This document shows, piece by piece, positions 30,534-60,859 of a stretch of 64,000 bases of DNA (the first letter of the stretch is position 1; the number at the start of each line of letters is the position of its first letter). This stretch comes from Sabellastarte sp. h YS-2021 (Eukaryota; Annelida; Polychaeta; Sabellida; Sabellidae), in NCBI GenBank assembly GCA_964017235.1, contig OZ024936.1, forward strand, positions 59,261,028 to 59,325,027. Direction: 5' to 3'. The position numbers and the translations under genes are program-made. The notes under the pieces are model-generated. The model made no database searches. It had not been told where the DNA came from and saw only the letters and a program-made list of their open reading frames with translations.

Positions 30534-31007
30534 ATTTTATGCCTATTTTAATAAATAATGAGGATATTTTAGGCGCATTTTGAACCTTACATGTCTGATC
30601 AGAAATTATTTTACCAAAATATTGTTCTAAATATAGCCCAAACTAGATGTAAATCAGCCCAAACCAGTACCAAATGTTGGTCTATAAGTCTGAAATTTGG
30701 CCCAAAAATCACTTGCCACATACTAAATCTGACTGTATAGGTTTTGAGATTACAGCTGGTATACCAGTGGTGTCATATGTCATACAGGGTTGAGGAGAGT
30801 GAAAATACAGCCTCAGATGGCTGTATCAGGAAATGCTGATATATTCTCAATTAAGGTAGATTCAAGGTTGAAAACCATATTGATTCACACAGGAGTCGCC
30901 ACTGAAATGAATTTTAGTAGTGTGTTCCTTCAGAAATACACATGTGGCCCAAAGTACAGGTTCTGGGAGTGTAGTTGGCGAGGGATGCATAAAATGCCAC
31001 ACTGAAA

Positions 31008-31300
31008 ACAAAAGTTGGTTAGTCTAACAAAGAAAAGTTGGTTGATCCTACGATGTCTAATTTAACCAATTAAGTTGGTTATATTAACTAAGTGTGTTGG
31101 TTGGTCAAACAAAGAAAGTTTGTAAGACTTAACAAACTAAGTTGGTTCCACAAACAAAGCATGTTGGTTACTACAACTAAAGTCATTTGTTTGTTCTACC
31201 AGTTAACTTGGTTTGTCTAATCAAGTAAGTTAGTTACTTGAATTAATTTGGTAAGTTGGTAAGGCCAATGTAAGTTGGTTACCCAAACTGACTTCATTAG
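31008..31300 (+). repeat. Degenerate ~22-bp quasi-palindromic minisatellite (GTTGGTT...AAC)
   Basis: About a dozen imperfect units follow one another, each of the form AAGTTGGTT, about five variable bases, then AACNAAG or similar. The word GTTGGTT itself occurs at least seven times in this stretch. Because the unit pairs GTTGGTT with AAC-rich words it is nearly self-complementary. Its inverted counterpart lies at 33700-33850. Confidence 0.65.
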
Positions 31301-31569
31301 TAAGAGCTATAAGTAGGTTTATTAATCCAATTAGATGAGTTTTTATTTAATCAAATTGATTAAATATTACTGACTACATGCATGGCAAATAAGTTTATAA
31401 CTACACTTTTTTAAAATAATGCTTTGCATGACAATGAAACAAGAAACAAGTGACCCATATATCAAAATACTTTATTGCAACATCTGATGATGAGGTGATA
31501 AAATAAACATTTCAATTTTAACAAACCAGTACATACTGGTTGGCCAAGATTCTACAGTGTAAAATGTGG

Positions 31570-31690
31570 GCATTGATAAGCAACTACCAACTTTCCCACA
31601 TAGGTTGGCCCAGGGTTTAAACTGTCAACCTCAGAGGTTGATGTCAAGTGTGTGGCACTCTTCACAACTGAGCCCACAACATAGCTTCTA
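31570..31690 (-). repeat. Possible degenerate tRNA-derived SINE fragment
   Basis: Read on the minus strand, TGGGCTCAGTTGTG (about 31662-31675) resembles a pol III A box and CAGTTTAAACCC (about 31613-31625) a decayed B box, about 45 bp apart as in tRNA genes, with tRNA-like sequence between. No poly(A) or simple tail and no target duplication is evident. A chance match is possible. Confidence 0.3.
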
Positions 31691-31699
31691 AAAGCCTGT

Positions 31700-33690
31700 T
31701 TCATTACAAATAACTTTAGGTCTTCTCATAGCCTTTTTAATTGAACTTTATCCGGTTACTTGGATTTGTTTTCAAGCCAAAGGTCATTTTGGGTCTTTAT
31801 AGGTTAGACACAAGAGGTTTAAATTACATCAACATATTTTCATATTAGCATTTGAAGGAACATTGACAAAAAAGGTTTTTGCATATATACAGAAAATAAA
31901 CTATATCACTAATACATTTTTGTATTTAAAACTTACAATACCACAAAATATTAAAGTGATAATTATACCCAGAGGCCAGTATTTGCAAAGAGGTCTTAAT
32001 TCTGAGACAAAATAGTGTCAACTTTAAATTCACAGTTTCTCAGCAAGAAAAATATTGTTGTGGATGTTAAATGTTTTAGAGTCATTTTCCAGGCTAGCAA
32101 GGTTTTCCAGATCACTCTCATTATGTTAAAGTGTCAGTGACCAGATATCCTGATATCCTGTATGTTGTTATAATATACAGGGAAGATGAAAATGTAGAAA
32201 GATTCCCACACACTTCACTGAGACCTTCATGCAACAACTGGTGTTTTAATAAATTCTAATACCTATGTACATGTTAAGATCTGAATTAAAGAATTAGAAT
32301 TAAACTTGTGTTTAATTACAAATCATGGTGTCAGAAGTGGGAATAACACTTGAACCTTTTACTAAAATATCTAAGACAACAATGCATCAGTCTAAAGTTG
32401 AGATTTGGTCTAATTTATTCTGTTAATAACTAAGTAGTTTAAAATAAAAAAAATTGTCTCATTCTTGAGACCAAAACTTAGACAAAATTTGTCTCAGTAT
32501 TTTTTCTGAATGCAGGCCTTGTATATCATTTAATTTCAGATGAAATTTGACTTAAATGTAGACAAAATAAAAACACTTTAGAAATCCAATAATGAAAAGT
32601 GTAACCAAACTAACTTCACACTGAAAGCAAGTTGTACTGTATATTTGATATTTCATCCGCACTGCACAGTGAATATTTAATATTGATATTATATACAGGC
32701 TCAAGTAACTTTAAGTCAACCCTGCTTCAACTACTATATCTACTCTTTGTTCATCTCTGTAACCAGGTCCAGTCAGTTGTACAAATGTGTATAATTCCAA
32801 ATCTGCTATATAGATTCTTTCTTGCTGTATATGTTGCAGAATCATAATTATTGGATTGTGATCACTGGTATGTCTTCAACAATGTTTCCATTCTGTAAAA
32901 CAAAAACATGGTGTTTGTTGGCGAGTTACATGAAATATGTAGTTTCTTTAGGTTGAACTGATACCACCACCTACGTGATGGGTATACAAATTAAAATACA
33001 CCAAAAGGGTTGAAAAGGGTTAATAACTTATCTAAAGAAACTGCAAAATTTATCATGTAAATGAAATATTCAAACATCAGTGCTTTTAAACTTATAGTTT
33101 TCACTGAACCAAAAAAATCAAAATTATAAAATACTGAACAAAATTTAATATTTTGCTACCATCTTTTACATTTTTTTTTTGTTTTACACCAAAATTATTA
33201 AAATATAACACTTTTCTATAATTCTTTTACAAGTAACATATTTTATATCAACAGATATGAACAAATAGTTCAGCTGTCACTTAGAGTTTGCAATACACAT
33301 AAATCAATCAATAAACATGCAAAACAGCATTAAAATTTCATATTAATATTGCAATTAAATACTACATATTAAAACTTTACTTTCTGACTTTCCTCGAAAA
33401 AGTTGATTTATCCCCATGACTTCTTTATCAAGCGTAACCAATTGGCTACAATGGCATGACAATGTTGAACTCTACTTTCTTGTTTTCACATTTGGTACTT
33501 CTTGTTCTGGTATCCAACTCATTGCGTTAAATAAAGGAGGCTACATAAATATAAATAAAATGATTTCACTACTTGAGTGTACACAGAACTTCATCTGAGA
33601 TATATAGTATTCAAATTTAATAGATTTATTAATTGATTGGTCTTCAAACTGTGACATAAAGCTAAAAAAAATAGGAATTGTGAAAATAAA
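31700..33690. other. AT-rich interior of the insertion, no gene seen
   Basis: This stretch has no open frame with a recognisable domain, no tandem array and no tRNA-like sequence. It contains several A or T runs. Nothing beyond membership in the 3.3-kb insertion can be supported. Confidence 0.5.
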
Positions 33691-33699
33691 ATATTGTAA

Positions 33700-33850
33700 A
33701 AATTAACCAACCTAAAGTAGTTGGGACAACTAATTCTAACAAATGTATGTTAGTTTGGCTAACCAACTCAAAGTCTGTAGCCCCTACAAATCAGATTGGT
33801 TAACCAAACCAACGTGTTAGTTTCACTAACAAATACAATTAGTTAAACAA
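33700..33850 (-). repeat. Inverted GTTGGTT-word cluster near right end of the insertion
   Basis: AACCAACC (about 33703), CTAACCAACTC (about 33760) and TTAACCAAACCAACG (about 33800) are reverse complements of the GTTGGTT word of the left end, with CTAACAAA partners as in the left-end units. The pair of clusters gives the insertion an inverted-repeat-like symmetry without a precise terminal inverted repeat. Confidence 0.55.
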
Positions 33851-34304
33851 AATAAAAATTATTATTACACTCAATTTTGTATTGTTAACATATTTCAAAA
33901 GAAAGCAAAACAGTAATAATACATAAAGGATTAATGTTACTGTGGGATTTTCCATGAAATACATCAAATAAAGTGAATATTTAACAGTATTTATTTTAGT
34001 GGGCAGTAATACAAGATCTTATCCACCTCAAATTTACAAACCTCTCTACATAACTTATTTTGTATGAAAATTGATTGCAATGCACATCATTTTAATCTAT
34101 ACATGGTGTAGCAATAAATTTAATTCATTTTAACAAATGTAGACACTAATATTGTCATATATGAGGAAAATAACTTACCCCTGATTCAAATAATTGCGCC
34201 AAAATCCAAATGTAAACAATTCATATGGTGCATGCTCAAACTCAAACTTAGCTGGACCAAACAGGGCTCTTAGTTTTAGAAACTAAGGTGTTAGTTAAAT
34301 TTTG

Positions 34305-35179
34305 ACATTAAAAATTTCAATTTCCGGGGTGTGGGGGGGCCCCATGCCACCCCTCAGGTAGGAAATTTCAAGTATATCCTAATATTGCCAATCTGAAGCC
34401 CAAATTTAATTTTATGCCTATTTTAATAAATAATGAGGATATTTTAGGCGCATTTTGAACCTTACATGTCTGATCAGAAATTATTTTACCAAAATATTGT
34501 TCTAAATATAGCCCAAACTAGATGTAAATCAGCCCAAACCAATACCAAATGTTGGTCTATAAGTCTGAAATTTGGCCCAAAAATCACTTGCCACATACTA
34601 AATCTGACTGTATAGGTTTTGAGATTACAGCTGGTATACCAGTGGTGTCATATGTCATACAGGGTTGAGGAGAGTGAAAATACAGCCTCAGATGGCTGTA
34701 TCAGGAAATGCTGATATATTCTCAATTAAGGTAGATTCAAGGTTGAAAACCATATTGATTCACACAGGAGTCGCCACTGAAATGAATTTTAGTAGTGTTC
34801 CTTCAGAAATACACATGTGGCCCAAAGTACAGGTTCTGGGAGTGTAGCTGGCGAGGGATGCATAAAATGCCAGATCAGCCCAAACCACCCCTTAACGTTG
34901 GTCAATCTGGCTGAAATTTTCACAGGAAACTCAGTTTATATCAGAGAAGGAATTTGTATTAGGCTGGCACACTCGAGGGCCACATTAAAAATTTCAATTT
35001 CCGGCATGTAGGGGGCCCCATGCCACCCCTCAGGTAGGAAATTTCAATTATATCCTAATATTCACAATCTAAAGCCCAAATTTAATTTTATGCCTATTTT
35101 AATAAATAATGAGGATATTTTAGGTGCATTTTGAGCATTACATGTCTGATCAGAAATTATTTTACCAAAATATTTTTTT
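34305..35179 (+). repeat. Satellite, about 1.3 monomers between the insertion and the LINE
   Basis: The same ~680-bp satellite resumes in the same orientation and phase. It is a little more diverged than the main array (for example AGTAGTGTTCC lacking two bases near 34793, CCGGCATGTAG near 35002). It runs into the LINE at ACCAAAATATTTTTTT, where an undisturbed monomer would continue GTTCTAAATA. Confidence 0.95.
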
Positions 35180-35300
35180 TTTTTTATATTTTTATTTCTT
35201 TTTCGGTTTACAGAAAAGAATACTGTTACACAATTACATTAAAGTTTCTACTTTCAGTTCTACATCAGATAATCCACAAATTTTTTACATACATTTTATA
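35180..35300 (-). other. LINE 3' UTR and poly(A) tail remnant
   Basis: About 120 bp separate the ORF2 stop (35301) from the T run at 35173-35185, which is the A tail on the coding strand. The short 3' UTR ending in an A run fits L1-type retrotransposition with little 3' sequence requirement. Confidence 0.7.
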
Positions 35301-36569
35301 CTATTCAAGTTCGAAGACATTTTTCCACAAATTCCATATGTTATTAAACACATTCATTTTAAAATTAATTTGGTATAAACTTCTTTGTTCTTGATAAATC
35401 TTAAAACACTCTTTTTGAAAAAGGTAAATGTTAAGTTGAAGTTCTTTCTTTGTGGACCATAATATATACCTTCTTGACAACAGGAGAATAAAGTTTAATG
35501 GCCAAAACATTTCATCCATGATACAATAACCTAAAATTTTCATTTCATTAGTCAATGTGACAGTAATGCCAATTTTGCTTTTTATCCATTCCCGTATTTG
35601 ATTCCAAAATGATTGTACTGGGTTACATTCAGAAAATAAATGACAAATTGTCTGCTCTGCTTGCTCACAAAGGTTACAAGTACTGTTATTGGAAATTTTG
35701 ACTCTAAACAAATATTCCTTTGTAGGAATAATATTAAAAAGTATTTTGTATTGCATGCTAACAACTGCATTATCTTGTACACATTTGAAGGTAGATTTAT
35801 AAATGTTATTCCAGAATATAGGTTTATTTTCTGTTTCAACTAGAAACATCCAGAAACTTTCACATAATGGTAAAGTGTGCTGTTTTGAATCTAGAAAAAT
35901 ATTGTAAAATTCTCTACATCCCCTGTTTTGTTTTAACAAAATTTTAAGATGAAATGGACAATTTGGATGTTGTAATTTTGGGAGATTTTCATTCTTAAAA
36001 TCACTAGTGAATGATTTTATTAGTTTCCTAATTCTGAAATAGTGCAATATATTTACATTAACATTGAAAGTAGATTTCATACTTTCTAATGTCATAGCTG
36101 TACCTTCTTCTGTCGTCAAGTCTCCCACAAACATAATGCCTTTTTTAACCCAAGTTGCAAAGAATAAAGGCTCCTTTGAAAAGTGACTGTTGTACCAAAT
36201 ACAGGACTGCAGTAGTTCCTGTTTTGTCTTCGGAATATTTAATTTGCATAATTCAGACCAATTTAAAAAGACTTTTGACCAAAATTTATTTTTAACCTTC
36301 TGTGACATTTGTTCAGACCATTCACCTCCTAGATTAAAGATACTGTTTAATCCATCATGTGTTAGAGACAAAAGTATTTTCCATTCTGTCTCTTGTTGAA
36401 ACAGAATTCTTTTTATCCAGTTAACTTTTAAAGCTTTCTCAAAGCTAAAAATATCTATCATTTTTATCCCCCCACTCATATAATCTAAACATGTAGTGCT
36501 TCTTTTTATCTTGTCAGGTTTCCTACTCCATAGAAATTTAAAAAAACAGTCATTTATGTTTTTTTAAAA
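35301..36569 (-). pseudogene. LINE ORF2, C-terminal part with CCHC-like knuckle
   Basis: An open frame of 392 codons from the first Met (36479), extending upstream in the same frame to about 36569 (NDCFFKFLWSRKPDK), holds the region downstream of the RT. The FLWSRKPDK segment is the usual post-RT box of L1-like ORF2. Near codons 268-285 lies C-x2-C-x8-H-x4-C, the cysteine knuckle typical of L1/Tx1 ORF2 C-termini, preceded by YKILFNIIPTKEYLF and followed by FWNQIREW, all family-typical. The frame joins the RT fragment through a shift in the T7/A7 tract at 36559-36572. Role in L1 elements: RNA binding needed for target-primed reverse transcription. Confidence 0.85.
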
Positions 36570-38475
36570 AACCTTCCGATACAGGTAGTGATGTTAGAAG
36601 GTGAACAAGTTTTGAAAGGAGAAATGTTTTAATCACCGTTACCTTTCCAATGATTGACAGATTACGACATTCCCATTTTTTCATTTCCGTCATAATACTG
36701 CAATAGGTTTTGTTAAAGTTTAACTCTGGTATTTTAGGAATGTCAACTGAGAATTCTAGGCCTAAGATTGAAATAATTGTGTCCCCCCAATTTAATTTGT
36801 GTGGTGTTTGGAGTTTTTCTTTCGAAAATTTTTTCCGCCCTATCCAAATCATTTTAGTTTTCTCCTTGTTCATTTTCAGTCCAGAGAAGTTACCAAAAAT
36901 TTCTAGAGTATTAAGGGCTGCCTGCAGGGAAGCAGTTGATCCATTTAGAAAAAGGGTAGTATCATCTGCAAATTGTGTCAGTTTAAATTCATGGCTTTCT
37001 ATTCTAATACCTTTGATATCCTTATTAAATTTTATCATCAGAGCCATTACTTCTGCTGCAATCAAAAAGAGATATGCTGATATGGGGTCCCCTTGTCTAC
37101 AACCCCGCCGAATAGGTATTCTTTTGGACAAGAATCCACTTTGCAATACATATGTTCCTATGTCATTATTAAAAAGTTTTATCCATTGTATAAATGTTTC
37201 ACTGAAGCCATAAAATTCAAGTGTTTTATAATAAGAATTTCCAAGAGACAGAGTCGAAGGCCTTTTCAAAGTCTATAAGCATCATTAATCCGGGAATATT
37301 TTTATTTTCTGTGTATTGCATTATATCGTAAACCAATCTTGTACTATCACTAATTTGTCTTCCACTTAGGAAACCTGTTTGGGTTTTTGAGATGATTTCC
37401 TTCAATGATTCTTTTAATCTGCTTGCTATGACACCAGATGCTAATTTATATGTGACTGGGAGGAGAGAAATGGGTCTCCAGTTTTTAATAAATTTTCTAT
37501 TTTTATTGCCTTTAGGGAGGCATACCAGAATACCTTGTCTATGTGTTGGAGATAAAATTCCTTTTTTAAAGCAACTGTTTATGGACTTTGTGATAAAATA
37601 TTGTAGCTTACTGTAGAAGACTTTAAAGAACTCCGAGGTAAAGCCATCAATTCCGGGACTTTTATTGTTTTTCATTCTTTTTAAGACTTGACCAATCTCT
37701 TTTACAGTGATAGGATCCCCTAAGTTACTGTCGCAAATTTTTATATCCGTGCTTTTTTTTAATAATTCGATTAAATTTACATCCATAGACCGTTTTTCAT
37801 CAAAAAGATTTACATAGTATTCCCTGATGTGATTTAGTATTTCAAACTGATCAGTTACAGACTCCCCATTTTGTAGTTCCAGGTATTTAATTGTTTTTTC
37901 GACAAATTTTTTGTTTTCTAGACTGCCTAAGAATTTTGAAGGTTTTTCCCCCTCTTTTAGCCATTGGAGTCTTGCTCTTACACGCTCTCCTTCAAGTTTT
38001 ATTTTTCTAATATCCTCTAGTTCAGCTTTCTTGTCAGATAAGAGTGTAGAATTTGACTCAATGAGAGTCTCATTGCTTTCTAAATATTTAATATCATTAA
38101 TAAGTTCTTTTTCTTTCAAATTTTGTAATTTCTTCTGAAAAGTAGCAAACTTGATACTTTCACCTCTAAGTCTTAAAACTAATACCTCAAGAAATATATC
38201 ACTATCTATAACAAGGTCAATATTACCATAATTTGCTGGATTGTTGAGAAAATTAATATTGTATACTGGGATGGCATATTTAAAAATTTCATCCTGTATT
38301 GCATTGTTAATAAGGTTTAGATATTCCTTCTGTTTTAAGAGGCTATTATTAAATTTCCATATGCCTTTGCCACGCTTGAAGCGGTTCAGAACTATTTCTA
38401 TTTCAGTAACTGAATGGTCTGATCGATAACCTGGTCTTATATTAGCTTTATGTATTATATCTATCATGTGTGAGG
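36550..38475 (-). pseudogene. LINE ORF2, reverse transcriptase domain (frameshifted)
   Basis: Two overlapping minus-strand frames make up the RT. The upstream one (to 37226) has NNKSPGIDGFTSEFFK, LPKGNKN, NWRPISLL, the QTGF...GR box and motif A IDFEKAFDS. The downstream one (37269-36550) has GCRQGDPIS (motif B), FADD at about 36961-36972 (motif C, intact), then LKMNKEKTK and GLEF. These are the ordered RT motifs of L1-type elements. The frame changes in the TTATAATAAG stretch at about 37225-37234. Catalytic Asp residues are all present, so inactivation is by frameshift only. The segment just upstream of the RT (RSDHS at about 38400) belongs to the endonuclease. Confidence 0.9.
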
Positions 38476-38834
38476 TTATAAGGAAAAATCTAGTCTTACC
38501 TGTTTTCTAGGATTTTTTTTGCGCCATGTATGCCGTTTCTCGTCTGGATTAATATGCCTATAGACATCCATTAAGTCTAAGTGTTCCATCATATTTAGAA
38601 CGGCTGTACGTGCCTTCGGATTATTAATGTTTTTATAATTTTCAGTGTCTTTAGAAGGATCCAAGACTATATTGAAGTCTCCACATATAACTGTGTAGTC
38701 TGCTTCATTGAGGATATTTGGAATTTCATTATAGAAAGCAGGATTATCATTATTAGGCCCATATATTGTCAAGAGGTTAATTGTTATATCATAAAGCTTC
38801 ATTACCAATAGTAAGTAATTACCAACATCATCTG

Positions 38835-38986
38835 AGGTCCTCAGTGGCCTAGTGGTTAGCAAGTTTGGCATCTAATCATAGGCTGTCACCTCTGTGGGTT
38901 CGAGTCCCACAAGTGGCAATTCTGAGGACCTGTCCCAATATGACCCTGGCTGTTGAACGGGACGTAAATCTCCAACTTTGACTTTG
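38835..38986 (+). mobile_element. tRNA-derived SINE inserted in LINE ORF2
   Basis: The 152-bp element has a textbook pol III promoter: A box TGGCCTAGTGG at 38845-38855 and B box GGTTCGAGTCC at 38897-38907, in a tRNA-like head. The body continues with CAATATGACCCTGGCTGTTG and ends in a TTTGAC repeat tail instead of poly(A). It is flanked by perfect 14-bp duplications, ACCAACATCATCTG, at 38821-38834 and 38987-39000. Both duplicates encode the same LINE residues (DDVG), which confirms insertion into an already present LINE. I do not assign a SINE family name. Confidence 0.95.
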
Positions 38987-39092
38987 ACCAACATCATCTG
39001 TTTTACAATCTAAAATCTCATATTCAAAGTTGTTTTTCAATAGTATTGCTACTCCCCTGGAGTTTGTACTTCTTCCACTAATGAAGCAATCA

Positions 39093-39111
39093 CCCCCCCC
39101 CCCCCCCCCCC
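39093..39111. repeat. Poly(C) tract of 19 bases inside the LINE endonuclease
   Basis: The run codes for extra glycines between the WGG and DCF positions of the endonuclease on the minus strand. Related L1 proteins have only one or two residues here. It is either a real slippage expansion or a sequencing or assembly artefact. Confidence 0.85.
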
Positions 39112-39304
39112 ATACTTCCTTTACTTCAGAAATGTCCTTTTCACACAGGTGTGTATCTTGAAGGCATAGAACATTAATATTTTTATCTTTAAAAAAGGAT
39201 AAAACATCTCTTCTTTTTTCTAAAGTTTGTAAGCCTTGACAATTTGCAGACAATACTACTAGATTATTTCTATTTGAGCACATATTTGTAAAAAGCTTCC
39301 CCAC

Positions 39305-42022
39305 AAGTACAGTGTTTGATCTTCAAGAATTTTCAATTTTGGTTGACAGTATGATGTGTAAAGATTTGTCACTTTTACTGTAAACTGTATTTTTTCTGTT
39401 TTTTTTCAATCTTTTCTAGGCAAATTTGATTTGCTATATTGGATGTCAAGGTGTAACATGAATTGAATGTAAAAGAAGGACAATGTCGAAGTTATGTGAA
39501 AACACAAAACAAAAACTAAAGAACATATATACACTATATACATGCAGCATACATAAGCAAGTGCCATTATGGCCGTATGCACAAAAACAAATCGAAAGGA
39601 CAAAGGAGGGTCTTATAGGTGTCATTTCTAGTGCCCTCATAAAATACCGGATATGACACAATAAAACAGTATTGTATCACACAGATTTAGAATATAAGCA
39701 TGATTACATATAAAATACAGCATGATTGCACAACACAATTTACTCTTATTACATTTCTTCATGAATGCAGGCAAAATATACCGTAAATGACCTATTTAGC
39801 ACACAGTGCGCTAAGGAAAGTCTAGTTTTTGGTGAATATGATGGTGGAAAGGTTCCCCCCCAAGCGCACCCATCATGAAACACCCCCTGGGATGAGGGAC
39901 AGGTCAGTCCGGTAAGAACAACGGTGTTCTGACATTTAGAATCTACTAAAAGTGCCTACTTGCTCTAAATATGGCTGTAGATCAAAACAAACTGGAAAGT
40001 CATTACAAAAATGTGAATCTATCAAGCAAAAAACACGTACAACACACAAAAATGTGGGCACCACGCACCGCCACCGACAACACTGCCAGGGAAAAGAGGC
40101 AGGGTAAGGTTACAAGGGCGGATGCGCTAAAAAGGCCACTCACAGCATATGATGAGAATTGAAATTCTGATTTATCCTGCTATCTACTACCATATCTTAA
40201 CAATAATAAATTGGAATATAATGAGAATAAGGGTTTTCCCAATAGTTTATGTGATTATAGATAGATACACATCTAAAAAGTCCTGACATCCTCATACTAC
40301 TTACAATTTAACTCTACCAAACTTCAGTTGTTTTCATACAGGAGCCCTGATGCAGACCAAGATTAACAGACAAGTGCTCCAAAATGGGTCACATGTCTAT
40401 AGTAAACAAAGTATAAATATGCCGAAGTGAAACGTATGTAGTGGATGATTCATTCATCAACACAGGCTACTATAGATTACCAATATATTATTATCATATA
40501 AAATTATTATTACATAATTTTATTTGGTCTCCTGTGTCGAAAAATGTACAAAATCTACAAAATTGTAAAACAACTGTAGCATTCAGCATACTGAGCTTAG
40601 TATAATTTAAATCTACCAAATTCAGCCATTTTTGTTTCTTCAACCATGCTAAAGATGGAGATTAATGAACATGTAATTATGGCCATGCCAATTGTCAATT
40701 ATGGGCAAAGAGTAAATATAAATACCAGTATTACAAACTCTTATTGATCAATGTCAATGTAGGAAATTTACAATGTATAAACATGCAATTATAACTTTTT
40801 CAACTTTCATTATGAAACAGAGAATACATATATTACCATGAAATTTGCGAGCAGGTTCATCCCTTTTATAAACAGCAGTTACAAAATATTAATCATACAA
40901 AGTCTTATAAAAGTTAAGTAGCCATAATGCACAAGGTATTAATGTGAAATTACTACTACAAATAATATTTGGAAATAAAGAGAACACAAAAGAATTATAA
41001 TTGTTCCAACTTACAATATGAAACAGAGAATACATATATCACTATGCAATTTGTGAGCAGGTTCATCCCTTTTATAAACAGCAGTTATAAGTTATCAATC
41101 ATCCAAGGTTTTATAAAAGTTACATAGCCATAATGTACGAGGTGTCAACATGAAGTTACTTCTACAAATAACATTGAAATAGAGAGAACACAAATTACTG
41201 TAGTATTTAGGCAAAGATTTTTTTCGTAAATAAACCACTGTTGTAAGTGGTCATTTATGCAGATTTTTTTTTCCAAAAAAATGCTCTTTAAAAGCAGTTT
41301 ATGCAATTTTATTGATCTCCAGTGTTAACAATCTCCAAAGTCTTAAAAATTATAAACACTATAACATTTAACATTAACATAATTTATATCTACCAAGTTC
41401 AGCCCTTTTCTTACTACAACCCTACTACATACCTAAATTAACAAACATGTGATTAGAGCCTTGTCAAATGTCAATTGTGAGCAAAAAGTTCAAATATATT
41501 GCAGTAGTATGTAAGAACAGAATGGTTGATTTTTCAACACATGTCACCCTTAATTCACAGTATTACAAGCTGTTACTGATCAATGTCATTGTGAGAAATC
41601 TACAGTGTCTAATTGTGCAATTAAAACTCTTTCAAACTGGCAATTGGAAAGTGAGAATACATATATTACCATGAGATTTATGAACAGATCCATCCCTTTT
41701 ATAAGTAGCAGTTGTAAATTATCAATCCTACAAAGTCTTATGAAAGTAGCAACAATGCTCAAAGTATAAACATAAAATTACTACTACATATAGTATTAAT
41801 GTTGGAAATAATGAGTACACAAATTGGAAGAGATTATCTCCTTAAATGAAGCACTATTTTAAGTTACCATTTATGCAGATTCTTTTTAAATGCTCTTTTT
41901 CAGAAGTTTATATTTTAATTAAATATACACATTTAAATATCATATAAATGCTTTTGTGAAAGAAATGAAATCATATTTTACCTCAAAGTGATTTTTTCAC
42001 GTTTGCTTTTACCTCAGAGTTT
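39305..42022 (-). other. 2.7-kb inter-ORF spacer of the LINE, with diverged tandem repeats
   Basis: No convincing coding frame is present; a 63-codon plus-strand frame at 39971-40162 has no recognisable domain. From about 40330 to 41950 diverged repeats occur. The block TTTATAAACAGCAGTTA with its flanks is present near 40873 and 41073 and, more diverged, near 41698. The GATCAATGTCA block is at about 40747 and 41578. The TTATGCAGATT block is at about 41254 and 41871. L1-like elements normally have a far shorter gap between ORFs, so this is either a family-specific spacer or a nested insertion whose ends I could not find. ORF1 ends in CTGAGGTAAAA shortly downstream of its stop, which resembles a splice donor. 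Confidence 0.6.
40814..41190. repeat. Two ~200-bp tandem repeats in the LINE spacer
   Basis: GAAACAGAGAATACATATAT, followed by a GCAGGTTCATCCCTTTTATA block, begins at 40814 and again at about 41013. Both continue with matching TAGCCATAATG and ACTACTACAAATAA-like segments. A third, more diverged copy starts near 41650. Confidence 0.8.
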
Positions 42023-43297
42023 TTATTTCCCATTTAGGGATCTTAGAGCCTCGATTGCTGATTTCCTGATTAGGTCGAACCTTTGCTTGCCCAGGTTGTC
42101 ACCACCAAACTTCCTTGTCACAATTAAGATACAGTCATTGGCATTGTTGCCGTGTAACAGGTCATGAAGTATTGTCCCTGCTCCCCACTCACCTCCGTCG
42201 CTATAGCCAGAAATGGTCTTCCCATCCAAGTCTGTTGTGCTGTATGCATAAATGATATGATCACATGAGACAGTATCTAGATTCTGGTGGAGGGCTCTCA
42301 GGACTGAACTTGCTTCCGATCTGGTGTGTATGCAGTGTGAATAACCCTGGAAACGGCTACCTTTCACTTCCACTGGAAGGGTTGATTGGATTTGGTCATA
42401 GCTTATTGGGGCAGTATCAACAGTTATATACTTGAGTGGGTTAAATTCAAAACTGTCGGTTTTCCTAGTACCATTAATAAACAGTTTATCCTTGGAAAGA
42501 ATGGTTTTTGCATTAGAACCTGTTTCTCTGGCTTCCTTTCTAACTGAAGTTAAGAAAGGGATTTGGGCGGTACGTCTTTCTCTCATCATTTTAGGTAGCT
42601 GCTCACTTATTGAGTATGGTGTAGATCGTAAATGTCTTGCACAGGATAACACCACATCACGTCCTCTTCTTGTGGTAAATGACACCACCACTGGTCTTGG
42701 CTTATTTCCTTTAACCCCAATTCTGTGAGCCACATCTATTCTGATATTTGCTGATGGATTTTCACATGAAAAAATTTCTGATCGGGGGATCTTCAAAGCT
42801 GAGACTATAAATTCTTGTACGTTAGAGTAGACGTTTTCGTCTGGTGTTTCCTGTAGCTTATAGATGACCGCATTTTTTGACATACTGTGGGCTTCCATGG
42901 TCGTCAGTTTTTCTTCTAGTTTCTCCACCTTTTGTGATAGTTTGGATGTAATACCGTCTGATTCAAGCTGGTGGAGTTTTAGCTGCTTATTTTCCAGTTG
43001 TAGTGATTTTAGATCAAATGCTGAATTAATTGTTAGCTTTTTTAGCACAAACAGAATTTCTGTGACCTTTTCTTCCATAGTTAGATTTTTGATTCGCTCC
43101 TCAATGTTCCCCTGTCCTTCAAAGTCTGTGACTGTTGTGGCATCTCCTCCTTCATACATTGTACTCAGGCTAATGGCATCTGATAACGGAGAGCTCATTC
43201 TAGAGGTTTTGTTTGGATTTATGGCTGGACTAGCACTACTTTTTGATAAGCTACTGTAATTTCTTTTTCTGCTAGTTTCTATATCCAGTTCAGTCAT
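42023..43297 (-). CDS. LINE ORF1 protein with C-terminal UPF0029/IMPACT-like domain
   Basis: This is an intact 424-codon frame. Residues 1-62 are Ser/Thr-rich and low complexity. 64-140 are heptad-like and charged (predicted coiled coil, for trimerisation in L1 ORF1p). 141-225 match the L1 ORF1 RRM core (NAVIYKLQE, IDVAHRIG, RPVVVSF). 226-285 match the following C-terminal domain (LPKMMRERR, LFING). Residues 308-424 are extra and match the UPF0029/IMPACT/YigZ N-domain: KGSRFQGY, HIIYAY, SDGGEWGAG, and VTRKFGGDNLG, where the family has VTRYFGGxKLG. The spacing from Gly374 to Arg395 is exactly that of the family signature. ORF1 proteins coat LINE RNA as chaperones; IMPACT-family domains bind ribosomes or RNA in host proteins. 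The consequence of the fusion is unknown. ORF1 is open although ORF2 is broken. Confidence 0.85.
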   Translation of the reverse strand: MTELDIETSRKRNYSSLSKSSASPAINPNKTSRMSSPLSDAISLSTMYEGGDATTVTDFEGQGNIEERIKNLTMEEKVTEILFVLKKLTINSAFDLKSLQLENKQLKLHQLESDGITSKLSQKVEKLEEKLTTMEAHSMSKNAVIYKLQETPDENVYSNVQEFIVSALKIPRSEIFSCENPSANIRIDVAHRIGVKGNKPRPVVVSFTTRRGRDVVLSCARHLRSTPYSISEQLPKMMRERRTAQIPFLTSVRKEARETGSNAKTILSKDKLFINGTRKTDSFEFNPLKYITVDTAPISYDQIQSTLPVEVKGSRFQGYSHCIHTRSEASSVLRALHQNLDTVSCDHIIYAYSTTDLDGKTISGYSDGGEWGAGTILHDLLHGNNANDCILIVTRKFGGDNLGKQRFDLIRKSAIEALRSLNGK

Positions 43298-43663
43298 ATC
43301 AATAGAATGTGTCTATTTTGTCAACAGTAAATAATTTTTATTTTCTGAGTGCTTTCTTCTTTGTATACTTTAAGCCAAATCAAAATTCAGTCTTGTTATT
43401 TTATCCAAGCTTATACGGTTAGACTGTAACCAAATCAAAACACAAATTTGGCAGTTCTGTTTCCTAGATTTATGTTTTAATCCAGCAGGTTTTGTCTTTT
43501 CATACATAAACAAATAATGACGTCACTTTATCCTAGTGTATCAATGTTGTCATATTGGGACATACAGTTTCTGTAACTCCATTGTGGGTGTTTATGTTAC
43601 CAGTTCAATGGGTATGGTGCTTTGGTGTGTTTAATTGATTGCCTTGTCATGTACAAATCAGTT
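43298..43663 (-). promoter_or_regulatory. LINE 5' UTR with a CRE palindrome
   Basis: The ~366 bp between ORF1 and the 5' target duplication should hold the internal promoter of the element. It contains a perfect TGACGTCA (43518-43525), the CREB/ATF consensus. No TATA box is obvious, as expected for an internal L1-type promoter. Function is inferred from position only. Confidence 0.5.
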
Positions 43664-43676
43664 AAAATATTTTTTT

Positions 43677-44564
43677 CTAAATATAGCCCAAAATAGATGT
43701 AAATCAGCCCAAACCAGTACCAAATGTTGGTCTATAAGTCTGAAATTTGGGCCAAAAATTACTTGCCACATACTAAATCTGACTGTATAGGTTTTGAGAT
43801 TACATCTGGTATACCAGTGGTGTCATATGTATCATATGGGGTCGAGGAAAATGGAAATATAGCCTCAGATGGCTGTATCAGGAAATGCTAATATATTCTC
43901 TATTAAGGTATATTCATGGTTGAAAACCATATTGATTCACACAGAAGTCGCCACTGAAATGAATTTTAGTAGTGTGTTCCTTTGGAAATACACATGTAGC
44001 CCAAAGTGCAGGTTCACGGCGTGTAGTTGGCGAGAGATGCATAAAATGCCAGATCAGCCCACACCACCCCTTAGAGTTGGTCAATCTGGCTGAAATTTTC
44101 ACAGGAAACTCAGTTTGTATCAAAGAATGAATTTGTATTAGGCTGGCCCACTTGAGGGCTACATTAAAAATTTCAATTTCCGGGGTGTAGGGAGGCCCCA
44201 TGCCACCCCTTAGGTAGGAAATTTCAAGTATATCCTAATATTACCAATCTAAAGCCCAAATTTAATTTTATGCCTATTTTAATAAATAATGATGATATTT
44301 TAGGCGCATTTTGAGCATTACATGTCTGATCAGAAATTATTTTACCAAAATATTGTTCTAAATATAACCCAAAATAGATGTAAATCAGCCCAAACCAGTA
44401 CCAAATGTTGGTCTATAAGTCTGAAATTTGGCCCAAAAATCACTTGCCACATATTAAATCTGACTGCATAGGTTTTGAGATTACATCTGGTATACCAGTG
44501 GTGTCATATGTGTCATACAGGGTCGAGGAGAGTGAAAATACAGCCTCAGATGGCTATATCAGGA
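43677..44564 (+). repeat. Diverged satellite copies at the right edge of the array
   Basis: About 1.3 monomers of the ~680-bp satellite continue after the LINE, starting exactly where the left flank left off (CTAAATATAGCCC). They carry many more private differences than the main array (for example GGGCCAAAAATTACTTG, CGGCGTGTAGTTGG, ATGATGATATT), then stop within TATCAGGA at 44564. Higher divergence at the array edge is expected when exchange homogenises only the interior. Confidence 0.93.
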
Positions 44565-46870: not shown

Positions 46871-47756
46871 AGATCAAGTACAACCCAGCAGGCACACGCC
46901 TTGAAATGTCGTTGATTTAGAGTTGAAAACAGGTCCTGACGTTGAAATGCACATTACCAACTACTAAATCTAAGTTAGTTTTCTGACATGAAAAAGTAGT
47001 GATATTTTGACCAGAAATCATGGTGATTTGTGGCTGAAAAACTGACACTGACACAATTTCAACACTATTTCAAAGCTGGATTTCTGACTGGAAAAAGTAG
47101 TGATACTTCATAAAAAATCACCACTAAATCAAGTTACGTTTTTCGACATGAAATCTTATTCATGTTATTGAACAGAAAACAGGTTGAATATTGAGAAATG
47201 AATGACTGGTTGATTGAAAATTCGTTTTCTAGAGGGTGATATAGTGATTAAGTCTAACTTTTTGAAAGAACTATTATTGCAATTGTTTTTGACTTTGTAG
47301 GTATTTGTAAAGCAAAGACTAATTTTTAAAGATTATAAAGATGATAAAGATTATGTGTACATGTACTTGTATATTTTTATCCATTCTCCTTATTAATTAA
47401 CTGGTGCATCCAAATATAATTTTTATAATTTATAATTATATTTTGATTAATACAATTCCCGATAATTAAAAAACAAGAGGAGAGTGCCCGTGAACGGGCA
47501 CTGTGTCAGCTGACTGAGTGTTTTTGATTTGTGAAGGTGATAATGAGAAGAAAGCATAATTATCAGGGAAAGTGCTGTACAGAAGTACAGTAAATGGTAA
47601 TTGAACAGCATGTTTGAAAGAGATTCCGAAGCTGACAGAAGAAAAGGCCAAAAAAGTTGTGCCCTGCAAATGGTATTATGAAGGAAAGTAACAAGATAAC
47701 TGTTTAAGTGTAAAAAGTAGGTTAAAACATATTTAAAGAAATACTGCAAATGCAAT

Positions 47757-48483
47757 ATCCTCGTTCCACCTTGAAGAAGGGGTCCACGGTCAAATCCAAC
47801 CACACAAAAACATTCCCAGCCCATGATTTCCTATAGGATGGTTTACCATCCCAAACCTCTAGGACCAATAATAAACGAGTTATAGGCACTTTTAAGTTTG
47901 GCTATCCTTGTTTGACCTTGAAGGAGGGGTCCAAGGTCAAATCCGACTACATCAAAAGATTCCCAGTCCATGATATCCTGTAGGTTGGTTTACCATCCCA
48001 AACCTGTAGGACCAATAATAAGCGAGTTATAAGCAATTTTAAGTTTGACTATCCTCAATTAACCTTGGAGGAGGAGTCCAAGGTCAAATCTGATCACACC
48101 AAAAGAATCCCAGCCCATGATTTCCTATATGTTGGTTTACCATCCCAAACCTCTAGGACCATTAATAAGCGAGTTATAAGCACTTTTAAGTTTGGCTATC
48201 CTCGTTTGAACTTGAAGGCAGGGTCCAAGGTCAAATCTGACTACACCAAATGATTCCCAGCCCATGATTTTCTATAGGTTGGTTTTCCATTCCAAACCTG
48301 TAGGATCAATAATAAGGGAGTTATAACCACTTTTAAGTTTGGCTATCCTTGTTTGACCTTGAAGGAGGGGGTCAAAGGTCAAATCTGACCACACCAAAAG
48401 ATTCACAGCCCATGATTTCCTACAGGTTGGTTTACCATCCCAAACCTCTAGGACCAATAATAAGGGAGATATAAGCACTTTTC
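47757..48483 (+). repeat. 147-bp tandem array, five copies
   Basis: Units begin ATCCTCGTT or similar at 47757, 47904, 48051, 48198 and 48345, a strict 147-bp spacing. Each contains a CCTTGAAGGAGGGGTCCAAGG-like phrase, CCCAGCCCATGATTTCC and CTAGGACCAATAATAA. Because 147 is a multiple of three, open frames can run through several units, but there is no evidence that they are coding. An inverted partial copy lies at 60860-61085. Confidence 0.95.
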
Positions 48484-48559: not shown

Positions 48560-49790
48560 TATGGTTATTAATATATCCTGCAAACTTGAGAAGGCTAGCT
48601 ATAATATTCTTTTCGTTAGAGTGGTAATGGTGAAATCTCTCTACACACTGCAGCTATCCAGTGGATACAATGATTTACTCAACAGTGAGAACCTGAAAGT
48701 AGCTATTGCTCAGCTATGCCATGACATACAGGTCTGCAATTTCACTATGTTATAGTTGACCAAAAATTACGTGAATAACATATTTAAACAAAATACTATA
48801 AATGCAATAGTTTTCAAGTTACAACTGACTTACTCAATAGTGATAACCTCAAAGTAGCTATTGCTCAGCTATGCAGTGAGCTACATGTCTGAAGTTTTAC
48901 TATGTTATAGCTGACCCAAAAGTAGGTGAACAACATATTTAAGCAAAATACTGTAAATGCAATAGTTTTCAAGCTACAACTGATTTACTCAATAGTGAGA
49001 ACCTGAAAATAGCTATTGCTCAGCTATGCCACGAGTTATAGGTCTGTAATTTCACTATGTTATAGCTGACCCAAAAGTAGGTGAACAACATATTTTAAGA
49101 AAATACTCCAAATGCAATATTTTTTCAAGTTACAACTGATTTACTCAACAGTCAGTACCTGAAAATAGCTATTGCTCAGTTGTGCCATGAGCTACAGGTC
49201 TGTAATTTCACTATGTTATAGATGACACAAAAGTAGGTGAATAACATATTTACACAAATTTCTGTAAATGCAATAGTTTTCCAATTACAACTGATTTACT
49301 CAACAGTGAGAACTTCAAAGTAGCTATTACTCAGCTATGCAATGAGCCACAGGTCTGGAACTTCACTATGTTATAGCTGACCCCAAAATAGGTGAATAAC
49401 ATATTGAAACAAAATACTCTAAATGCAATAGTTTTCAAGTTATAAGTGATTTACTCAACAGTGATAACCTAAAAGTAGCTATTACTCAGCTATGCCATGA
49501 GCTACAGGTCTGAAATTTTACTATGTTATAGCTGACCCAAAAGTAGCTGAATAACATATTTATACAAAATTCTCTAAATGCAATAGTTTTCAAGTTACAA
49601 GTGATTTTACTCATGATGGAAGTTACGGAAAAGCCCAAAAGTAGCTATTACTCACTTAGCTATTGAGACAGACACCCAAGTTATTCACCATGTTGTAGCT
49701 CTGAAAAAAGTAGCTGAATAACATATTTTAACAAAATGCTCTAAATGCAACACTTTTCAAGATATATGTGATTTAGTGCATGATTTCATG
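48560..49790 (+). repeat. 155-bp tandem array, about seven to eight copies
   Basis: TGCAATAG or TGCAATAT recurs at 48803, 48958, 49113, 49269, 49424 and 49579, with a last diverged unit near 49746, giving a 155-156-bp period. Each unit contains GATTTACTCAACAGTGA, GTAGCTATTGCTCAGC and CACTATGTTATAGCTGACC. The same family is present in the opposite orientation at 58830-60068. Confidence 0.95.
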
Positions 49791-51318: not shown

Positions 51319-51857
51319 ATTTTACACATTGAATTCAACCCTATTTCATACATTGGATCCAACCAAAACCTGTTTGCAAAATCTACATGTATTTCAACCA
51401 GATTTCGCACATAAATACAACCGCATTTCAACAGTTGGTTTCAACATGATTTCACTAGTTGGATCCAACCAAAAACGGTTTGCAAAATCTACACGTATTT
51501 CAACCTGATTTCACCCATTGAATTCAACCAGATTTCAACAGTTTTTTTCAACATGATTTCACCGGTTGGATCCAACCAAAAACGGTTTGCAAAATCTACA
51601 CGTATTTCAACCTGATTTCACCCATTGAATTCAACCAGATTTCAACAGTTGGTTTCAACATGATTTCACCGGTTGGATCCAACCAAAAACGGTTTGCAAA
51701 ATCTACACGTATTTCAACCTGATTTCACCCATTGAATTCAACCAGATTTCAACAGTTGGTTTCAACATGATTTCACCAGTTGGATCCAACAAAAACGGTT
51801 TGCAAAATCTACACGTATTTCAACCTGATTTCACCATTGGATTCAACCTGATTTCAA
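51319..51857 (+). repeat. 107-bp tandem array, about five copies, subterminal in the TIR element
   Basis: ATTTCAACAG starts units at 51425, 51532, 51639 and 51746, exactly 107 bp apart, with a diverged unit before and a partial one after. Each has GGTTTCAACATGATTTCAC, GTTGGATCCAACCAA (containing the palindrome TTGGATCCAA) and GGTTTGCAAAATCTAC. Its place just inside the right TIR suggests subterminal repeats of the transposon. Confidence 0.95.
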
Positions 51858-52280
51858 AGTTGCGTGCCTGCTGGGAAGTACCAGCATTACATTTTCTATT
51901 TGTATAATATTATTAGAAGACTTCAACAAAAGGTGTGGTGAGAGTAAAATATATTGTGAGGTGCGGTGAAAAGGTGCGGTAAGAGGTGTGGCTCCGAGTA
52001 AGCTCCAACTCCAGGTCCGAGTTTTATAACATACTACTAAATGATGAACTTTACATATCGACAAGTTTCAATTAAAGCGGCTGATAATGGCTGATAATCT
52101 CAAACCCGGAAATTTATAAAATAATATCTATTATCCCCAAATTTTAGTGTGAATGCAATTAAGTCTACACAATTTGGCCTTCTTGTACTTATTTCTTATT
52201 TATTAATGTCATTTTTCAGTTCGTTAGTCTTTCATATATTCAGGACAAACCTTATATCATGAAAAAAATCATTGATTTGA

Positions 52281-54290: not shown

Positions 54291-55004
54291 ATGATTTTCC
54301 TTTATTTTTTACTGGCAATCCAACCAGTTATTGCTTCATATCAGCACCATAGCAACTCAAGCATTAAGTGCCCTGATGTCGTCAGTTTCTGCCCCTTCAA
54401 ACCCCCCACCACCACCTTCTGTCTATATTTAATCATCAAACCTACAATCTCAATTCCACCTGCCCTACCACCCTTCCGTCTTTTCATCCTACTCCTGCTT
54501 GCTGGTGACATAAACCCAAACCCAGGACCACCCAGGTGTCCAAAGGTCACCTATGCAAACATTAGATCAATACACAACAAATATCCTGCCATTGCAAAAT
54601 TTATTTCTGATAATGACACCGATCTCTTCGCCATGTCTGAGACCTGGATAAGACCTGACACCACAAGTGCAAATCTGTCCGAAATTACCCCACCAGGCTA
54701 CAAACTCTATCAACAGCCACGAGCGGCCCGTCACGGTGGAGGATTGGGCTTTTTTGTCAAAGACGGATTGGATCCTTCCGTAGTTCCAACAAAGACCTGT
54801 ATCACCTTTGAAAATTTCCTCCTCAAGATAACCCTTCACAAAGAATCCTTTTACCTTCTGAATATATATAGACCTCCGTCCTCCAGCACTACATCCTTTT
54901 TTGACCAGTTTCAGTCACTTTTGGAGGATATTCACCATACCACGGAGAACCTGGTGATCATCGGCGACTTCAATTTTCACCTTGAAACAACATGTTCAAA
55001 TTGA
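54291..55004 (+). pseudogene. CR1/L2 LINE N-terminus: hydrophobic leader, 2A-like motif, endonuclease
   Basis: The 237-codon frame starts with a signal-like stretch (MIFLYFLLAIQPVIA). A second hydrophobic run, LFILLLLAG, leads directly into GDINPNPGP at residues 72-80 (54504-54530). This resembles the 2A ribosome-skipping consensus D-x-E-x-NPGP with Asn in place of Glu; such motifs are known at the N-terminus of CR1/L2-type ORFs. The endonuclease follows: YANIRSI (88-94), SETW (116-119), NIYRPPSS and GDFNFH (215-220). The frame ends at a TGA at 55005 where homologues would continue, and a frameshift follows near 55055-55070. Confidence 0.85.
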
Positions 55005-55062
55005 AAAACCTTTCATTCTTTGACTGATTCGTTTGATTTAACTCAGAAAGTTAACTTTTCCA

Positions 55063-56871
55063 ACTCACATTCATGGACATACACTTGACCAGGTATTAAC
55101 CAAATCTAACAATGACTATATTTCCAATGTCCATACCACTGATGCCTTTTCCGACCACTTTTCAATTAGTTTTACCCTTAATCTCTCAACCCCTACAACC
55201 CAAACCAAGGCTACTGTCACCTTTCGTAAATACCATAAAATTGATAAAGACAAATTGAAAACAGATCTCCTCGCTTCTGAACTACTTAATAATCCTTCCA
55301 AGGAAGCTGACACTCTTTATGAACAATATCATACTACTTTGTCCACCCTTATTGACAAATATGCACCACCACACACCAAAAATACCAAGGCGAAGTACAT
55401 CCCAGGATGGGTTAATGAAACGGTAATTGCGGCAAAGGAGACCAAGCGTTTGTTTGAACGTATTTGGTGCCGAAATAAATTTACCTTCAATAGATCCCAA
55501 TACATGCAGAAAGTCCACCAGTACAATAAAATCTGCATGCAGGCCAAATCTGAATTCCTCAAAGAAAAAATTCGGGACAATCACCACAACCCACAAAAAC
55601 TATGGCGAGTCCTGGGGGATGTGTTACACAGAATCCCAGCAAAGATTCTCCCATCTATAAACCCCCGAAAGCTTTTGGCTGACAGATTTGTCGAGTTCTT
55701 TACAGAAAAAATTGAAAAAATACACTCAATTTTCTCTACCTCACTCAATTTCCGACACATCACCCCAGACTCTCCTCCACCCACATTCGCCTCTTTCTCT
55801 GCTGTAACTGAAGAGCAGGTCACCAAAATCATTCAAGACTCTCCCACTAAATCATGTTCCCTTGACCCTTGGCCCACTTTTCTTGTTCTTGAATTCCTGG
55901 ATATTCTTATTACCCCCATCACCTCAATAATCAACGCCTCTCTAGCACAAGGTACGTGTCCTAATTTCTTTAAGCAGGCCCATGTAACCCCAATTCTCAA
56001 AAAATCATCCTTAGACAAGGAAGTTTTCAAAAATTACAGGCCTGTTTCCAATCTAAACTTTATTTCAAAGATACTTGAAAGGGTAGTAGCTGCCCAGCTA
56101 CAAACTCTCCTTGATGAAGCCGGCCTGATGACTGCCTTCCAGTCGGCTTATAGAAAACACCATTCTACTGAAAGTTCCCTCCTTAACATTCATAATGATA
56201 TTCTTCTCAATATGGCCAAAGGGTGTGTTACAGCCCTCACCCTTCTAGATCTCTCCGCCACTTTCGATACCATTGATCACACTGTACTCCTGGACAGACT
56301 TAATGGTTACTATGGAATCCGTGAACTGGCACTCGGCTGGTTCAAATCATACCTGTCGGAAAGGACACACTCGGTCAAGGTAGGCAGCACACTCTCAAAT
56401 CCTGTTGCCCTTCAGCATGGGGTCCCCCAGGGCTCCGTCCTTGGTCCAATTCTTTTTTCCCTTTACACCAACCCAATCAGCTCCATCATTCAATCTCACA
56501 GTAGCATCAATTACCATTTCTACGCTGTTGACACTCAGCTATACATTTCACTCTCTCCAGCAAATTTTTCTCACTCTGTACAAAAACTAAAAAATTGCCT
56601 AAACGACATCCAAAACTTCATGTTCACAAATAAATTAAAACTCAACCCTGATAAAACCAAGTTCATTTTTATAGGTTCGAAAAACAACCGTAAACAACTC
56701 CTTCCTCACTTTCCAATCAATATTCTTGGTAATCAAGTCTCACCAGCACAAAGTGTCAAGAACCTCGGAGTGGTGTTTGACTCCAATTTCACTTTCTCCG
56801 ACCATGTGTCACAGGTCATAAAGTCCACTAGAGCTCATGCAAGAGACCTCTACAGAATACGCCCCTTCTAG
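55063..56871 (+). pseudogene. CR1/L2 LINE reverse transcriptase, active-site mutated
   Basis: The frame is open from about 55063 through 55255 to 56871. Numbered from 55255 it has FKNYRPVSNL (258-267), AFQSAYRKHHSTE, motif A LDLSATFDTIDH (from 331), motif B GVPQGSVLGPILF, and FYAVDTQLY at 422-430. The expected YADD is YAVD: codon 425 is GTT (56527-56529) instead of an Asp codon, removing a catalytic metal ligand. The endonuclease end (AFSDHFSI) lies near 55145-55170. The thumb region (LKLNPDKTKFIFIG, KNLGVVFDSNF) is well preserved. The frame ends at a TAG at 56869 that a one-base shift would bypass. Confidence 0.9.
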
Positions 56872-57392
56872 ACCTTAAAACATCAGTTCTTTTAGCCAAT
56901 GCCTTGGTCAGCAGCAGACTGGACTACTGCAATTCCCTGTTTCTATCACTCACAGACTTTGAGCTAAGAAGATTGCAACTAGTACAAAACTCACTCTGCA
57001 GGGTTGTCACCCGTTCCTCAAAATTTTCTCACATCACCCCTCAACTGAAAAAACTCCATTGGCTTCCAGTTAGGTATAGGGTACAATTCAAAATAGGCCT
57101 CATTACATACAAAATCCTCAACCAAGGTCAGCCTGTTTACCTAAGAGAACTAATCCACCCCTACACTTCCTTTAGAAATACTAGACAAAGTACCCCTAAA
57201 CTCAAGTTCCTTCATACCCCCACTTTTGACCATAGAGTTCATAAATCAATTAAACACTTCTCAAATTCTTTTAGTCACTATGCCCCAGTTCTTTGGAACT
57301 CTCTCCCCTTCAAAATAAGAAACAGTCCCTCTGTCGCATCTTTCAGGAAACACCTCAAAACCCACCTTTTCAACTCTAGCTTCCAAACTTAG
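56869..57392 (+). pseudogene. CR1/L2 LINE C-terminal domain
   Basis: The next frame continues the protein (LLDLKTSVLL then SSRLDYCNSLF) to a stop at 57390-57392. It carries the family-typical blocks RLQLVQNSLCRVV, HITPQLKKLHWLPV, YRVQFKIGLITYKIL, APVLWNSLP and FRKHLKTHLF. The function of this CR1/L2 C-terminal region is not defined. The first in-frame Met is at 56904, but the homologous sequence starts at the frameshift. Confidence 0.88.
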
Positions 57393-60114: not shown

Positions 60115-60855
60115 AATTACTTGCCTACTAAAAATGAGTAATTCTGCATTTTCTCTAAAAGTATTGCAGATAGCAAATTTTTCTTAAATAACTCATTCAC
60201 CTACTTTTGGGAGAGCTTTCACATACTGAAGTTCCAGACCTGTAGGTAATTACTCACCTACTCAAAATGAGTAAATGCAAATTATCTCTAAAAGTATTGC
60301 AGATAGCCAATTTTTGTCAACTAACTCCTTCACCTACTTTTGGGAGAGCTTTCACTTGGTGAAGTTTCAGACCCGTAGGTAATTACTCGCCTACTGAAAA
60401 TGAGTAAATGCTAATTATCTCTAAAAGTATTCCCGATAGCCAATTTTTGTCAAATAACTCCTTCACCTACTTTTGGGAGACCTTTCACTTGGTGAAGTTT
60501 CAGACCTGTAGCTAATTATTCACCTACTCAAAATGAGTAAATGCTAATTATCTCTAAAAGTATTGCAGATATCCAATTCTTATCAAATAACTCATTCATC
60601 TACTTTTAGGAGAGCTTTCACATGGTGAAGTTTCAGACCCGTAGGTAATTACTCACCTACTGAAAATGAGTAAATTCGAATTATCTCTAAAAGTATTGTA
60701 GATAGCCAATTTTTCTCAAATAACTCATTCGCCTACTTTTGAGAGAGCTTTCACTTGGTGAAGTTTCAGACCCGTAGCTAATTATTCACCTACTCAAAAT
60801 GAGTAAATGCGAATTATCTCTAGAAGTATTGCAGATAGCCAATTTTTCTCAAATA
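60115..60855 (-). repeat. 133-bp tandem array, about six copies
   Basis: The phrase C(A/G)CCTACT(C/G)AAAATGAGTAAA recurs at 60122, 60255, 60388, 60521, 60654 and 60787, exactly 133 bp apart. Units share CACCTACTTTTGGGAGAGC, TTCAGACC(T/C)GTAG and GAGTAAATGC with the 155-bp family, so the two arrays are diverged relatives with a length difference of ~22 bp. Confidence 0.95.
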
Positions 60856-60859
60856 ACTC

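Follow-up and report, generated by a model that had tools for sequence, protein, structure and literature searches.

Organization of the locus

The window, a stretch of 64,000 nucleotides of contig OZ024936.1 from Sabellastarte sp. h YS-2021, carries on its minus strand a LINE element of ~8.5 kb (positions 35175..43663) composed of a 5′ leader, ORF1, a long spacer, a broken ORF2, and a poly-A tail. A sequence comparison between the satellite that it interrupts and uninterrupted copies of that satellite, which read ...AGAACAATATTTTGG at the insertion site, gave its boundaries. The 8-bp target-site duplication read in this way, AATATTTT, is present on the minus strand at 43664..43671 on the 5′ side and at 35167..35174 on the 3′ side, immediately past the poly-A end.

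The satellite, made of ~680-bp units, occupies positions 1-30999 almost unbroken; its full-length units show 95.6-98.1% identity to the one at 34305-34980. Additional satellite pieces (34305-35177 and 43664-44564) flank the LINE, and ~3.3 kb without satellite (31000-34304) separate the first of these pieces from the array at 1-30999. Elsewhere in the window there is a second LINE on the plus strand (54291-57392) with endonuclease and reverse transcriptase matches, which by eye only resembles the CR1/L2 group. Tandem arrays are present at 47756-48482 (period 147), 48666-49613 (period 155), 51353-51862 (period 107), 59011-59958 (period 155), and 60115-60862 (period 133); by eye, the arrays that start at 48666 and 59011 seem to share one unit, present on opposite strands.

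The ORF1 frame (42023..43297, minus strand) is intact and encodes 424 amino acids. It is separated from ORF2 by a 2.7-kb spacer (39305..42022, minus strand) with internal repeats, among them repeats of ~206 nt and longer at 40787-41917. Parts of this spacer recur at other loci of the host genome, namely at L002 with 96-98% identity, at L006 and L017 (which overlap at one place) with 97% identity, and at L003-L005 with lower identity. Because these parts are common to sister copies, the spacer belongs to the subfamily of the window LINE, and its interpretation as a foreign insertion is ruled out. The L004 copy holds several repeated pieces of the spacer. The ORF2 remnant (35301..39304, minus strand) is spread over several frames and retains traces of an APE-type endonuclease, a reverse transcriptase, and a zf-RVT region; the latter two give matches above the Pfam cut-off, whereas the endonuclease pieces fall below it. 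Within the remnant are 19 consecutive G and a SINE-like insert (38835..38987, minus strand) flanked by a 13-bp repeat, CAGATGATGTTGG, as read from the sequence. By eye this insert looks tRNA-derived; an Rfam search of the window yielded no match at gathering scores.

ORF1 has the parts of an L1-type ORF1 protein

The initial annotation had described the ORF1 protein as a coiled coil followed by an L1 RRM core, and this description agrees with the predicted fold, which matches human LINE-1 ORF1p. The coiled coil (residues 65-138; 42884..43105, minus strand) is indicated by AlphaFold2 helices, by the alignment with 2yko, and by weak profile hits on PDB coiled coils, both designed and natural. 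A single L1-type RRM (residues 138-233; 42599..42886, minus strand) and an L1-type CTD (residues 236-280; 42458..42592, minus strand; elements H235-258 and E264-278 in the model) were assigned by Foldseek/VIA-align comparison with 2yko and 2ldy. The RRM-CTD structure 2ldy aligned over residues 139-279 at 5.5 Å and 2yko over residues 94-374 at 4.2 Å. A second model, built from the distant copy L034 (mean pLDDT 81), shows the elements in the same order, with the long helix before the RRM spanning residues 71-142 as compared with 95-137 in the window model. No PF02994 match was found in the window ORF1 at E ≤ 1, and the L1-type assignment therefore rests on structure instead; among relatives, P0026 gives a PF02994 match of 0.00093, which is below the cut-off.

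A UPF0029/IMPACT domain follows the RNA-binding core

Residues 312-418 (42044..42364, minus strand) form a UPF0029/IMPACT ancient domain. The PF01205 match in the window ORF1 extends over the full profile (E = 6.3e-18), and the predicted fold of the domain matches Yih1 (6bqi), TTHA1053 (2cve), and YigZ (1vi7). Both the Pfam match and an IMPACT-like fold were thus found, and the additional C-terminal IMPACT/YigZ-like domain that had been proposed from sequence motifs is real. VIA-align matches were mostly to RRMs over residues 135-236 and offered no other fold for the domain, an absence that proves nothing. Thirteen aligned positions that are conserved in at least 15 of 18 LINE domains hold the same residue in Yih1 and in three bacterial proteins, and the window copy reads DGGE where the family has the DDGE motif. 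The same Pfam search detected neither an RWD domain nor PF09186 in the window ORF1 at E ≤ 1, and the frame stops after the UPF0029 domain; we take PF09186 to be the second C-terminal domain of YigZ. Overall, we are nearly certain that this is an L1-type ORF1 protein, with a disordered N-terminus, coiled coil, RRM, and CTD, to which a UPF0029 domain has been added.

Matches to PF01205 also occur in the distant copy L034, in L031 (a copy within an intact element), and in proteins P0002, P0005, P0015, and P0017. A single-sequence protein search returned 13 proteins, 11 of them with PF01205 precomputed, and a profile search returned 20, including 12 with PF01205; P0025, which we read as a bacterial YigZ-like protein, is among these 12. 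Three relatives (P0023, P0024, and P0026) match the ORF1 core only, without PF01205, and represent domain-free ORF1 relatives. In P0008, a family member, the domain is largely missing; in P0011, P0018, and P0019 the sequence stops ahead of the domain or inside it, or the frame of the domain is lost. When the domain alone was used as the query, one protein was obtained among 173 candidates, and no IMPACT protein. Nine proteins (P0009, P0010, P0012, P0013, and P0015-P0019) are each at most 49% identical to any of 54 genomic loci, and P0007 and P0014 are 77-80% identical to L035. Mean protein identities in a 22-sequence family alignment are 45% (domain), 46% (RRM), 42% (CTD), and 34% (coil).

The fusion is present in many copies, some of them in intact elements

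The whole ORF1 was searched against the genome from which the window derives (1.786 Gb, 647 contigs). At least 99 places match (99 scored of 1317 candidates), with identities to the query from 100% down to 32%; the alignment reaches the domain end (query residue 411 or beyond) in 92 of the 99, and 77 have no internal stop. Since these copies were found with a domain-bearing query, those that never had the domain or have lost it are under-sampled. Nevertheless, the fusion occurs at many genomic places and is not confined to the window locus, which rules out a single-locus artefact.

Among four longer stretches, both ORFs are intact in L031 and L033, whose ORF2 frames span 1268 and 1271 amino acids, respectively. 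The ORF2 of L032 lies in several frames; that of L034 lies in two, and this stretch ends before ORF2 does. The intact copies encode an ORF2 with an APE-type endonuclease, a reverse transcriptase, and a C-terminal zinc region, and they have poly-A and target-site duplications of ~8 bp in L031 (AACTCACA) and ~15 bp in L033 (ACAACACATGGCATG); each duplication adjoins the poly-A, so that its length is exact only to within a few A. The best PDB match of the L033 ORF2 is human L1 ORF2p (8sxt; residues 7-1201, E = 1.5e-98). By these features the family belongs to the L1-superfamily LINEs. Within the L023-L029 subfamily, the sharp 5′ end of L024, which lies ~565 nt ahead of the ORF1 match, recurs in five of six compared copies, and L028, the sixth, is shorter; the flanks differ among copies, and L024, L025, and L026 are identical over the compared codons of the RRM, CTD, and domain. 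Taken together, the intact elements, their duplications, the common 5′ end with different flanks, and the identical codons point to recent movement.

The domain is constrained like the core

Constraint was assessed with 39 open copies from 51 places, giving 741 pairs that are not independent. Copies with stops (six among L001-L030 and four among L035-L054) and two short copies of the first group were left out, and L031-L033, which are longer stretches of L026, L010, and L021, were not counted again. Synonymous sites are saturated in 706 of the pairs; in these, mean pS is 0.78 in both regions, with a mean pN of 0.38 in the domain and 0.37 in the RRM plus CTD, and pN is smaller than pS in all 706 for either region. 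As judged from these codon comparisons, purifying selection on the domain is shown to equal that on the RNA-binding core. For close pairs, pooled dN/dS is ~0.32 in the domain and 0.17 in the core, values from 32 pairs that are too thin for ranking; the comparison of 39 copies included just one pair with dS of 0.1-1.2.

These data bear on the notion that the domain is carried passively or was joined by chance at a single locus. The window copy taken by itself would fit that notion, because its ORF2 is broken and its domain differs from that of its closest relative, L002, by eight non-synonymous and two synonymous changes, which together with the DGGE variant indicate that this copy may be decaying. 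However, the occurrence of the fusion at 99 or more places, the intact full elements, and the uniform excess of pS over pN in diverged pairs, as in the core, leave the passenger account with almost no probability.

Origin of the domain

In a tree limited to the 18 LINE domains and four references (Yih1, YigZ, TTHA1053, and the bacterial P0025), the LINE domains split from the references with a support of 93. The LINE domains share with Yih1 an R-F pair after LG/IG and a shorter DDGE loop, both of which are absent from the three bacterial sequences, and these common indels suggest that the domain was captured once, from a eukaryotic IMPACT gene. The family profile matches Yih1 at 2.8e-19, as compared with 0.22 and 0.6 for TTHA1053 and YigZ. 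Identity to Yih1 ranges from 25 to 34%, and its mean (28%) does not favour Yih1 over the bacterial proteins (23, 29, and 32%). An origin from YigZ, or bacterial contamination, is accordingly disfavoured by the indels and profile scores but not by mean identity. On sequence grounds, a single capture from a eukaryotic IMPACT/Yih1 gene is very probable.

Exchanging the core and domain trees between the two alignments costs 70 and 38 log units, whereas label-shuffled trees cost at least 265 log units (16 of 50 listed). Identity of the two trees is rejected by the AU test (p = 0.004 and 1.2e-5) but not by the SH test (0.45 and 0.18). We read these outcomes as mostly joint descent with some exchange; some exchange of domains between subfamilies is likely.

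Possible roles of the domain

Natural fusions often join proteins of one pathway. In the fusion described here, these would be ORF1p-RNA particles and the ribosome or stress axis, and we suggest that a LINE family with a selected IMPACT-related domain may work with the host machinery for making proteins. ORF1p is needed for L1 movement, and its function is described in the available text of PMC10202459 as poorly understood. In the proposed mechanism, the RRM and CTD would coat the RNA of the element, as in L1, and the added domain, which keeps residues common to bacterial and yeast proteins, would act as a protein-docking module through which the ORF1p particle contacts an old partner in the translation machinery, so that the RNA-protein particle would be held at translating ribosomes or its translation protected under stress. 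A captured docking module on the ORF1p particle is the best explanation as a whole, although we place it slightly short of an even chance; that the docking is to the translation machinery is a little more tentative. A precedent for contact between ORF1p and translation comes from mouse L1 ORF1p, for which the portions of PMC10289378 available describe co-sedimentation with polysomes and enrichment in their fractions.

The charge of the domain bears on the choice between docking and a role in which it provides an extra RNA-binding surface that helps ORF1p to coat or remodel the element RNA, with no host partner. Accessory RNA-binding parts would not be foreign to such proteins, given that PMC4120745 (in part) treats CCHC knuckles and the CTD as probable accessory domains for RNA binding in ORF1s, and the domain sits close behind the RRM and CTD in the models. 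However, it is neutral to acidic (net charge of 0 or below) in 16 of 18 sequences, with a mean net charge of −2.2 as compared with +9.4 for the RRM/CTD, which favours protein docking over bulk RNA binding, and none of the UPF0029 structures among the matches listed is an RNA complex by its title. We consider an RNA-binding role unlikely.

The initial annotation had linked the domain to GCN1/GCN2 signalling, and one form of this idea is that the domain mimics IMPACT and competes for GCN1, thereby damping GCN2 and eIF2alpha phosphorylation. Its homology to the C-terminal domain of IMPACT/Yih1 accords with mimicry, as do reports that IMPACT and Yih1 bind Gcn1, ribosomes, and actin (PMC4503747, in part) and that mouse L1 ORF1p, by another route that involves PRKRA, has been proposed to curb eIF2alpha phosphorylation; the excerpted text of the latter source also gives phospho-eIF2alpha as unchanged in Mael mutant testis (PMC10289378). 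However, the available portions of PMC4503747 and PMC7140605 attribute Gcn1 binding and competition for GCN1 to the RWD domain at the N-terminus of Yih1/IMPACT; they give the function of the C-terminal ancient domain as unknown and place its invariant features in loops on one side. The RWD domain alone, when overexpressed, inhibits the starvation response (PMC7140605, in part), and none was detected in the window ORF1. Because the RWD is absent, competition for GCN1 is rated lower and is improbable: the specific link to GCN1/GCN2 is weak, while the broader suggestion of a role at ribosomes or in translation is plausible.

A further alternative is that the domain acts not in translation but in assembly or traffic, such as particle packing, actin contact, or nuclear entry. 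G-actin and Cdc28 are also among the partners of Yih1, and the mapping can be read as placing a separate Cdc28 site in the ancient domain (PMC4503747, in part); moreover, a trimeric ORF1p, as deduced from 2yko, would present three copies of the domain. In the same partial source (PMC4503747), however, the major determinant of Cdc28 binding takes in the linker and overlaps with the regions that bind actin, Gcn1, and ribosomes, and a role in assembly or traffic is, in our judgment, quite unlikely.

Returning to docking at the translation machinery, a bolder version holds that this LINE radiation uses the captured IMPACT piece against host translational shut-down, or to keep its particle on ribosomes. 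We regard this version as somewhat unlikely. If true, it would amount to a retrotransposon counter-measure to the stress response built from a captured IMPACT piece. An old, selected fusion of this kind offers a test of what the ancient UPF0029 domain binds and of how a LINE particle meets the translation machinery.

Comparison with known systems

The initial annotation knew of no standard L1 ORF1 architecture with this domain, and we likewise found no description of a UPF0029/IMPACT domain on a LINE ORF1 in the freely accessible literature searched. The papers that match UPF0029/PF01205 together with transposition wording concern, in the text available, domain coevolution (PMC6822775) and root bacteria (PMC10719396), and UPF0029 is absent from the main text of a bivalve transposon paper (PMC10294476) and of the hard clam genome paper (PMC8905726).

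Human LINE-1 ORF1p (type II; 2yko, 2w7a, 2ldy) has the same coiled coil, single RRM, and CTD in the same order and fold, but the ORF1 protein described here has ~120 further residues that form the UPF0029 domain; the ORF2 partner, with its APE-type endonuclease, reverse transcriptase, and C-terminal zinc region, is like that of human L1. IMPACT/Yih1 (6bqi) shares the fold of the ancient domain and its motifs, among them the R-F pair and the short DDGE loop, whereas the domain here is without an RWD and is fused to a retrotransposon RNA-binding protein. Compared with YigZ and TTHA1053 (1vi7, 2cve), the second C-terminal domain is missing and the sequence is set apart by indels. Added domains are described in other LINE proteins, namely an esterase and a PHD in CR1/L2 ORF1 and a viral helicase in TRAS ORF2 (PMC3905857, PMC5563155, and PMC4120745, each in part); the present case is likewise a LINE protein with an added domain, but the domain and the LINE clade are different. 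The combination of ORF1 with UPF0029 lies outside the five ORF1 types quoted in the available portion of PMC4120745.
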